A stretch of 64,000 bases of DNA from Tridacna crocea (Eukaryota > Mollusca > Bivalvia > Cardiida > Cardiidae): NCBI GenBank assembly GCA_943736015.1, contig OX031061.1:64672192-64736191 (forward strand), given 5' to 3'. A model generated the notes under the pieces. It was not told where the DNA came from. It saw only the letters and a list, made by a program, of their open reading frames with translations, and did not search any database. Below, piece after piece: positions 31,676 through 41,340 of the stretch. The position numbers were made by a program, and so were the translations under genes. The first letter of the stretch is position 1; each line of letters starts with the position of its first letter.

Positions 31676-31890
31676 GATAAAGGGTTAGGGTTTACATTTC
31701 TTTAAAGATATCGGAGGCCGATTAAATACGATGCGATTTTTATCATAATCTGAAATAGCGCGTTTTATGGAGTGGAATAACCGCTTGCAGACGTGGAAGC
31801 GCGTGCATCGCATTTGATACCACGTGATCCTTTAATAATAAAGCTGGAACCATACGGTATAAGCAGTAAGGCCCCCGGCTTGTAGATCCT

Positions 31891-32097
31891 CTTACGAACG
31901 AAGTCCGTAACAAAGAAACAAATGAATAAATGCATGGCAGAAATAAGGATCGGAGCGGGATTCGAACTCCGAACTCCCGGACGCAAAGCCAATACCCTAA
32001 CCACTGAGCCAAAGAGATATCTCTCTGACGCAGTAGCCAGGTATTGTATTTAAATCGGGAGTATATGCCATGCAGGAAGGAGTGGTCTCCCGTAACA
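31891..32097 (-). repeat. TRIM 3' LTR
   Basis: 207 bp. On the minus strand a TTTAAATA TATA-like stretch (about 32045-32056) lies upstream of the tRNA-like segment. Within that, TGGCTCAGTGG (32011-32001) fits the A box and AGTTCGAATCC (31968-31958) fits the B box with one mismatch. Confidence 0.85.
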
Positions 32098-32195
32098 CAC
32101 CCCCTCTTAAAGTCATCATTTATTGATGACTCAAAGCCTTATTAGGCAGGAAGTCCAATTTTGGACAACAAATGGGATTAATGGCTCAATGGCCA

Positions 32196-32213
32196 ATCCC
32201 GGACGAGCCCCCA
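32196..32213 (-). promoter_or_regulatory. TRIM primer-binding site (tRNA-Pro type)
   Basis: 18 nt, complementary to the 3' terminus of tRNA-Pro including CCA; the same type is used by gammaretroviruses. One base separates it from the 5' LTR. Confidence 0.85.
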
Positions 32214-32214
32214 T

Positions 32215-32421
32215 CTTACGAACGAAGTCCGTAACAAAGAAACAAATGAATAAATGCATGGCAGAAATAAGGATCGGAGCGGGATTCGAACTCCGAACTC
32301 CCGGACGCAAAGCCAATACCCTAACCACTGAGCCAAAGAGATATCTCTCTGACGCAGTAGCCAGGTATTGTATTTAAATCGGGAGTATATGCCATGCAGG
32401 AAGGAGTGGTCTCCCGTAACA
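32215..32421 (-). repeat. TRIM 5' LTR
   Basis: Offset from the other LTR by exactly 324 bp with no difference that I can see over 207 bp, which implies a recent insertion. A box is at 32335-32325 and B box at 32292-32282. Confidence 0.85.
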
Positions 32422-32499
32422 ATCCTCTTACAGAAGATATTAAGTTTGAGCGCGGTATTTTCGATCCAAGCACTGCATAAATGAAAACTTTCTTCACCA

Positions 32500-32732
32500 T
32501 GTACCACACAATCCTGAGTTTTGACAACCCAGCGAGAAAGCATTTTGAAAACATTGCCGAAAAAAAAAAGGAAAATAATGGCGGTAACCAGGATTTTCTT
32601 CTTGTCCTATAATATTTTCAACCCTTTTGAAGAGAAACCCATTTTTGGAGCCATATTTATTTTTTTTCATCTACATAATTATCCTTTCATTTCGGCCATA
32701 TCAAACGATTTGTCATTTGCTGAGGAGTCATC
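32500..32732 (+). mobile_element. Decayed TTAA MITE
   Basis: ACCACACAATCCTGAGTTTTG start, degenerate hairpin (CGGTAACCAGGATTTTCTTC), Q-end trace. Confidence 0.65.
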
Positions 32733-40316: not shown

Positions 40317-40880
40317 ATATATGGAAATTATTGTGAACATGACAGTCTGCCATTGTACGCCAGTCCAGAGGTTAGTTGCTGACAGAAAAATTGATTTAAA
40401 AACCACGTTAAAACATGTTGGATAGCAGTGTTTTTGGTTTACAATTTGACTGATTTTAACTTTCTTTTTTTCTGCCAGCGACATACGCATGACCAAACCA
40501 AATAATAATTTACTGTCACCTCCACAATATTTTCCATACTTTTAAATAGTATGATTTAAATCTAAATCTATTATGACACTGCTTTGATATTTTGACTTTT
40601 ACAGGGCCTTTAAGATGACTAAAAAATGCTCATCTGTGGGTAAAGAACGTCACGTTCATATATTTGGGTCTATTTTAAAATATAGACAAGTTCATTTCAA
40701 CTTTTCAGAGGTCTAAAGATTACTACTCGGTTAGAAAGAAAATTCTCTCCCATAAATGAATTAAGTCAAATACGTAAGGGACTAGCCACGCGTGCGCATG
40801 CCTCAAAATTAAATTCCAACACTTGTAACCCGTAAATGAAGTATGTTAACAAAATTAACTGTTTATTTTCTTGTAATTAC
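40317..40880 (+). other. Upstream region or intron of NHLH
   Basis: Part (40319-40570) resembles CYP20A1 intron sequence at 53510-53740 (both end TTTTAAATAGTATGATTT), so it is an old repeat. No core promoter recognised. Confidence 0.4.
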
Positions 40881-40882
40881 AG

Positions 40883-40959
40883 GCAATTTCGACATTCCAC
40901 TGACATTTTGTGAGAGACAGGACTGTTTTAAAAGAAAGCATTGCTTAATAAAACAGGCA
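40883..40959 (+). other. Probable 5' UTR part of the NHLH coding exon
   Basis: Lies between a pyrimidine-rich acceptor ending in AG at 40881-40882 and the chosen ATG. It is open in frame with the coding sequence, so a protein starting in an upstream exon cannot be excluded. Confidence 0.5.
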
Positions 40960-41340
40960 ATGTATAACAGCGCAAGTTTAGACCCTCGGACTTTTACAAG
41001 CACCGAAAACTTATATGGCCGCGGTGCTGAACATTCTGTTGTGCATTTCAATACTCGGGAACCAGTGGCTATCACTAACAGAGGTAGACGCAACGGAAAC
41101 CAGGAAAATTCGGGACTTAGTCGAGAGGAGAGGCGACGACGAAGGCGAGCAACTCAAAAATATCGATCTGCTCACGCCACGAGAGAACGAGTCAGAGTTG
41201 AAGCTTTTAATGTGGCCTTTACTGAACTTCGAAAACTTTTGCCAACATTACCACCAGACAAAAAATTGTCGAAAATAGAAATTTTGAGATTGGCAATCTG
41301 TTACATTTCATATCTCAATCATGTGTTAGAGCTAAACTAG
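40960..41340 (+). CDS. NHLH1: NHLH (HEN/NSCL) class bHLH transcription factor
   Basis: A 126-residue protein. The C-terminal half is a basic helix-loop-helix domain (about residues 69-122): a run of arginines, then [18 protein letters not shown], the loop [11 protein letters not shown] and helix 2 [15 protein letters not shown]. This is close to residue-for-residue the NHLH1/NHLH2 pattern known from vertebrates, and the domain lies at the C-terminus as in those ~133-residue proteins. Family knowledge: a nuclear E-box-binding neuronal differentiation factor that dimerises with E-proteins. Start choice: the frame stays open upstream to 40843, but a TTTTCTTGTAATTACAG acceptor at 40882 makes the region before 40883 intronic, and M-Y-N-S at 40960 gives the family's usual length. 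A 5' non-coding exon is likely further upstream. Invertebrates usually have one NHLH gene, so the vertebrate number in the symbol is nominal. Confidence 0.9.

Follow-up and report, generated by a model that had tools for sequence, protein, structure and literature searches.

The window, meaning the whole 64,000-nucleotide stretch of DNA analyzed here, carries on its minus strand a complete TRIM of 532 bp, in which two LTRs of 208 bp, 100% identical to each other, enclose an interior of 116 bp (Table 1). A Pfam scan of ten open frames of the window found only one domain, a basic helix-loop-helix (bHLH) domain (PF00010; E value, 8.3e-20) in the frame at 40840 to 41340, whose protein is close to helix-loop-helix protein 1/2 of bivalves. 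The initial annotation had given the TRIM as 531 bp from position 31891, with identical direct repeats of 207 bp, a 5-bp outer duplication (ATCCT), and a tRNA-Pro primer-binding site one base inside the LTR. The identity of the repeats, the primer site, and the purine tract before the 3' LTR all hold, but the repeats are 208 bp long, the element begins at 31890, the duplication is the 4-bp ATCC, and the primer site directly adjoins the LTR end (...CGTAAGA) with no spacer. A single one-base shift, involving the A that is the last base of the LTR, accounts for the shorter repeat, the longer duplication, and the apparent gap. The primer site TGGGGGCTCGTCCGGGAT is presumably that of tRNA-Pro.

Table 1. 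Features of the TRIM and its flanks in the window. LTR positions are counted in the element's own reading direction.
Feature	Position	Strand	Basis
Complete Helenus-type TRIM, 532 bp	31890..32421	-	Repeat comparison and TSDs of other copies
TSD copy ATCC, upstream in the element's own reading direction	32422..32425	.	4-bp TSDs of other copies
TSD ATCC, second copy	31886..31889	.	4-bp TSDs of other copies
5' LTR, 208 bp, TGTTACGG...CGTAAGA	32214..32421	-	
3' LTR, identical to the 5' LTR	31890..32097	-	
Interior, 116 bp	32098..32213	-	
Primer-binding site TGGGGGCTCGTCCGGGAT, assigned to tRNA-Pro	32196..32213	-	
Polypurine tract AAGAGGGGGTG, before the 3' LTR	32098..32108	-	
GATTGGCCA, short homology where four chimeras join Gypsy gag to the Helenus interior	32190..32198	-	
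TATA-like TTTAAATA, LTR 44-51, 5' LTR copy	32371..32378	-	
RNA 5' end, inferred from other copies, LTR 74-79, 5' LTR copy	32343..32348	-	
A box TGGCTCAGTGG, LTR 87-97, 5' LTR copy	32325..32335	-	
B box AGTTCGAATCC, LTR 130-140, 5' LTR copy	32282..32292	-	
A box, 3' LTR copy	32001..32011	-	
B box, 3' LTR copy	31958..31968	-	
RNA hairpin, 57 nt, LTR 52-108, A box in the 3' arm	32314..32370 (5' LTR) and 31990-32046 (3' LTR)	-	

The length of the duplication and the end of the LTR were settled by other copies in the genome. Among 23 loci from a search with the LTR, 19 had an exact 4-bp target site duplication (TSD) and none a 5-bp one; the others were L011, L022, L028, and L004, the last of which is flanked by AGGT once its fold-back end is recognized. 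A second set gave exact 4-bp TSDs at 29 of 30 loci, or 26 of 27 distinct flank pairs, as three pairs of loci had common flanks; the exception is L051, into which the script merged an adjacent chimera. The LTR search yielded 1,596 first-look candidates, 40 of which were scored and the best 30, all 99.5 to 100% identical to the window LTR, cut out; the interior search yielded 431, and every one of the 40 scored was 100% identical. Both copy counts are lower bounds and are skewed toward close copies. The 23 loci include four single LTRs with TSDs (L006, L007, L020, and L023) and arrays of four (L003) and three (L030) LTRs within one TSD pair. The search with the LTR that had been proposed at the outset thus recovered full copies, solo LTRs, and arrays, with TSDs as the rule. 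Single units lacking primer site and duplication did not predominate: single LTRs show TSDs, as recombined solo LTRs do, and the copies examined mostly keep the primer site and TSDs, in agreement with the original reading of a TRIM rather than a SINE or a chance tandem. Diverged relatives were also present (L035 and L039). The diverged copy at 301-673 of L039 differs between the A and B boxes, both of which are nearly kept, and contains CTTTTAATC, which we take to resemble the anticodon loop of tRNA-Lys(UUU).

The element is a new member of Helenus, placed there by the described features and not by the listed consensus sequences. Helenus comprises TRIMs of fungi, animals, and plants whose LTRs are tRNA-like (Kojima 2024; PMC10886601), and this was the only relevant work found in the literature on Helenus/TRIMp3. 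Its members, like the window element, are shorter than about 1.3 kb and have A and B boxes in the LTR, a primer-binding site, a polypurine tract, and, in animals, 4-bp TSDs; the primers of bivalve families include tRNA-Pro, and solo LTRs have been reported, as have tandem arrays for one zebrafish family (PMC10886601). The window element is likewise short and non-autonomous, with two LTRs, primer site, and polypurine tract, with A and B boxes in the LTR (boxes only; no tRNA was found), and with 4-bp TSDs in its family (19/23 and 29/30 loci). The initial annotation knew of no molluscan TRIM with a tRNA-type promoter, but 51 bivalve Helenus families from five pteriomorph orders have been published (PMC10886601).

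Rfam returned no match, 5S rRNA and hammerhead ribozymes included, at E values up to 10 in positions 31700 to 32620. Retrozymes, which carry a hammerhead ribozyme in the LTR, are rejected on this ground. Cassandra is also a TRIM with a polymerase III (Pol III) promoter in the LTR, but differs in being a plant element with a 5S rRNA promoter and conserved terminators within the 5S sequence (PMC10886601). The bivalve biv-TRIM resembles the window element in its 202- to 218-bp repeats and its tandem and solo forms, but has an interior of 77 to 80 bp, a polypurine tract that is mostly GGGGAGA, and no canonical primer-binding site, and a tRNA-type promoter goes unmentioned in the part of that report drawn on here (Satovic 2019; PMC6934838). 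With its 116-bp interior, its polypurine tract AAGAGGGGGTG, and a canonical primer site, the window element is not biv-TRIM.

The tRNA-like Pol III promoter initially proposed for the LTRs stands as a pair of promoter boxes, not as a recognizable tRNA. The A box TGGCTCAGTGG has no mismatch and the B box AGTTCGAATCC one mismatch to consensus sequences that we take to be TGGCNNAGTGG and GGTTCGANNCC, respectively, and the two boxes start 43 nt apart (LTR 87 and LTR 130). None of 3,000 dinucleotide shuffles of the LTR equalled them (best sum of three mismatches versus one observed), and the two LTRs hold the only pairs in the window, on either strand, with no more than one mismatch per box. Only the boxes are recognizable, since no tRNA was found by Rfam (E value up to 10; 921 bases, 31700 to 32620) or by ARAGORN (window plus 20 loci, bacterial setting). 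No TTTT terminator marking an RNA 3' end was found. Scarcity of TTTT is itself a weak sign of Pol III selection: the P value is 0.0002 for the 532-bp element, in which the LTR is counted twice, and 0.0097 for the 324-bp unit, and in the LTRs AAAA is no commoner than TTTT (0 and 2 of 67). The LTR folds more strongly in the sense than in the antisense direction (z, -7.31 versus -3.49), as does the hairpin at LTR 52-108 (-33.2 versus -15.7 kcal/mol). Despite this strong sense fold, RNA-level selection on the hairpin is unsupported by the one diverged copy tested, in which pairing was kept no more than under random change (P = 0.40).

Certain insertions appear to record where the RNA begins. The insertion in L039 opens on an inverted U5 end, forms a palindrome about LTR 79|80, and has AGGT on both flanks, as read by eye. 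With this palindrome as query, 12 near-full-length palindromic units were found at 10 of the 40 places scored, a count taken from the stronger rows of the scored list and obtained with a query that is itself a mixed-arm palindrome, so that mixed ones rank first. Units at all 10 places lack U3 and consist of LTR 80-208 preceded by its own reverse complement, and all are centered on LTR 79|80, although the center is mutated in L081 and the left arm shortened in L039. Exact TSDs flank 8 of the 10 places (L039 by eye): solo palindromic units in L076, L081, and L084; unit-interior-LTR forms in L077, L078, and L080; the palindrome in L039, within a longer array; and L085 (478-4285; TSD ACTA), which has a palindromic unit at both ends with Gypsy leader, gag, and part of pol in between. 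Of the other two places, L079 and L075, TSD scoring covered L079, whose match is doubtful, the flank being primer-site-like.

Beyond position 74, the left arms agree with the partner arm rather than with the sequence that lies upstream in the LTR itself, which would place the end of the strong-stop DNA at LTR 74-79. In one LTR that carries an internal duplication, the joint falls at LTR 78-80. The RNA start so deduced lies 8 to 13 nt before the A box. Such a spacing suits a tRNA-type promoter, as in the anatomy of SINEs, yet the TATA-like box upstream fits Pol II equally, so that the position suits both.

The simplest account of the palindromic insertions would be that two minus-strand strong-stop DNAs paired through AGAGATATCTCT. 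We propose tentatively that the genome keeps integrated dimers of such DNA (U5-R|R-U5, with host duplications) that map the RNA start 8 to 13 nt before the A box, and that units without U3 and TATA box may act as LTRs, as in L085. If they do, the internal tRNA-type promoter would suffice.

It is also quite possible, if somewhat doubtful, that the palindromic units all descend from one dimer that replicated as a palindromic LTR, in which case the common center would reflect one event and be a weaker guide to the RNA start. Nine of the 10 tabulated units carry C110T-T111C on one arm only, and these changes occur in just 9 and 11, respectively, of 61 ordinary LTRs; furthermore, the two units of L085 share T152A, which none of the 61 ordinary LTRs has, and the rare A171G. 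The mixed arms may mean a shared founder or may reflect the query, which was taken from a mixed-arm palindrome and so favors mixed units. L084 has both arms of the same type, the variants common to the two ends of L085 would also arise from two RNAs in one particle, and ordinary LTR copying would not produce L077, L078, and L080, in which one end is a palindrome but the opposite end a normal LTR. The palindromic insertions may not all be independent, and the preferred reading remains that of integrated strong-stop dimers.

A start at LTR 74-79 could also be that of a Pol II transcript from the TATA-like box, with the A and B boxes a passive relic of a SINE insertion, an explanation that we regard as unlikely. 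Variability was counted as minor bases per sequence and column in 67 distinct LTRs; as these are close relatives, and many insertions contribute both of their LTRs, the count gives a tendency and not a test. The TATA region (LTR 44-51), 23 to 35 nt upstream of the deduced start, is the least variable part of the LTR (0.0019) and thus nearly invariant, and the diverged copy of L039 has TATAAATA at this position. The B box (0.0163) shows no special conservation: several box-free regions vary as little or less (0.0106 to 0.0172). Its one shared variant, A130G, is toward the consensus. The A box, in contrast, is nearly invariant (0.0054 versus 0.0396 in LTR 1-43), and in the diverged L039 copy, whose LTR 110-169 does not align, each box survives with a single base changed. 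In addition, AATAAA and ATTAAA are absent from the LTR, and the only AATAAA of the element precedes the purine tract. Variability therefore tends to favor the TATA region and the A box, not the B box, and Pol II could also start at the TATA box; a Pol III start nevertheless remains our preferred reading. On the minus strand of L037, at about 1590-1820, lies a SINE-like sequence of tRNA type that shares the A box TGGCTCAGTGG, and a sequence of this kind is a possible source type for the LTR promoter.

Evidence on how the element moves comes from chimeras with one Gypsy family. A query spanning the junction between gag and the Helenus interior gave 885 first-look candidates, and 4 of the 40 scored cross from one into the other. 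All four are built as Helenus LTR, primer site, Gypsy leader, gag, interior, and Helenus LTR, have exact 4-bp TSDs (ATAG, ATGG, ACTG, and ACGT), and join at 8 to 9 nt of homology within GATTGGCCA, beside the primer site; in L038, the Helenus interior resumes from position 17 after the start of the Gag-like frame. The leader and gag start of L038 (about 700 bp) are 100% identical to two Gypsy copies, L071 and L072, whereas the other three chimeras are 90.4 to 94.1% identical to these and 94.3 to 97.9% identical among themselves, so the four are not one recent copy. Either the switch would have recurred at the same spot or an older chimera would have been copied and at least L038 have arisen or been refreshed recently. 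Between its Helenus LTRs, L070 also has long Gypsy frames, which are broken, and a Gypsy LTR, and homologous joining with Gypsy DNA would account for these. In L075, a complex joint product, two palindrome-interior-LTR series, identical over 556 bp, enclose an inverted Gypsy part.

The Gypsy family is abundant. The gag piece of L038, the start of a Gag-like frame that follows the primer site and leader between Helenus LTRs, had 929 homologs at E values up to 0.001 among 7,979 scored candidates; in its own genome it gave 168 matches from 150 scored of 21,447 first-look candidates, and at least 30 of the matches listed lie within one open frame of 1,574 to 1,600 codons. Among viral contigs, no relative of the gag piece was confirmed (52 pattern matches), and no exact match to the LTR-primer site junction was found. 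The Gypsy LTRs (554 bp in L071 and about 498 bp in L072; TGTTATGT...CGTAACA) end as TGTTA...CGTAACA, compared with TGTTA...CGTAAGA in Helenus. In both copies a spacer, GAAAT, precedes the primer region, which, over the 21 nt of TGGGGGCTCGTCCGGGAT plus TGG, agrees with Helenus at 21 of 21 positions in L071 and 20 of 21 in L072, and the flanks, read by eye, have 4-bp TSDs (ACAC and CCCC). Beyond their ends, the Helenus LTR and the LTRs of L071 and L072 agree no better than chance (best E value, 0.36).

Five pieces of L071 gave the domain order zinc knuckle (weak, below the Pfam cutoff), integrase, reverse transcriptase (RT), and RNase H. A SCAN domain (PF02023) was flagged in 7 of 120 listed relatives of the gag piece and confirmed in four of six relatives scanned, those four having been picked because they were flagged and the other two being without it; the five L071 pieces scanned had no SCAN match. 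Integrase upstream of RT is the Gmr1 arrangement (PMC6238403), and SCAN-type Gag has been linked to Gmr1-like Gypsy elements (PMC4592553). The Gypsy family resembles these in placing integrase before RT and perhaps, to judge by some of its relatives, in the SCAN-type Gag, and by Gag type in relatives and domain order it is a putative Gmr1-like Gypsy.

Template switching requires both RNAs in one particle, which makes this family the best helper candidate, and the Gypsy of the chimeras is likely the helper; we infer which step copied which RNA. The dependence on another element's machinery foreseen in the initial annotation was right, and four chimeras point to the abundant Gypsy family as the candidate. 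That the real helper is another LTR element, the chimeras reflecting only occasional copackaging, seems improbable: junctions numbered just 4 among 40 scored and the searches covered one Gypsy family only, but Gypsy and Helenus have in common the 21-nt primer region, the LTR ends, and the 4-bp TSD, and more Gypsy-Helenus joints occur in L070, L075, and L085. The claim for this Gypsy as helper is stronger than that for Pol III. A SINE by chance in tandem, a single unit with no primer site and no fixed short TSD, is scarcely credible. The genome does contain, in L037, a SINE-like sequence of tRNA type that shares the A box, but the primer site, the purine tract, the solo and tandem LTR forms, and the 4-bp TSDs of both locus sets refute this reading.

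The host can be placed by its bHLH protein, which groups in a tree with Mactra, Ruditapes, Mya, Dreissena, and five further sequences at 97/96, with Sinanodonta and the scallop Ylistrum outside; Ylistrum is a long branch and the sole pteriomorph, and 7 of 18 inner branches are open. This tree, of one gene and thinly sampled, suggests a heterodont bivalve, whereas the molluscan hosts given in the consulted portion of the Helenus report are Pteriomorphia only (PMC10886601). There, bivalve families were tied to Gypsy through similarity of the primer-binding sites, whereas the link here is through chimeras; the autonomous mover of a given animal Helenus and the function of the Pol III promoter were left open (PMC10886601).

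What is observed directly is a multicopy family with TRIM anatomy, integrase-type duplications of 4 bp, copies in solo and tandem form, and chimeras that involve a single Gypsy family. The window element is, in our best explanation, a young Helenus-family copy in a bivalve, and this explanation as a whole, helper and Pol III start at LTR 74-79 included, is probable. Pol III would start Helenus RNA at about LTR 74-79 by means of the A and B boxes; the RNA would be packaged with that of the putative Gmr1-like Gypsy (integrase before RT, the same tRNA-Pro primer site, and a putative SCAN-type Gag), whose enzymes would reverse transcribe and integrate it. The palindromes would form when two minus-strand strong-stop DNAs are joined at their 3' ends via AGAGATATCTCT and the dimer is integrated by its U5 ends.

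Within its recently described kind the element is ordinary; the traces of its movement are unusually good. Through the chimeras with an abundant Gypsy family that has open frames, together with fossil RNA starts, a single genome allows a direct test of both of Kojima's questions. If confirmed, the palindromic insertions would allow the transcription starts of LTR elements to be read from assemblies alone.
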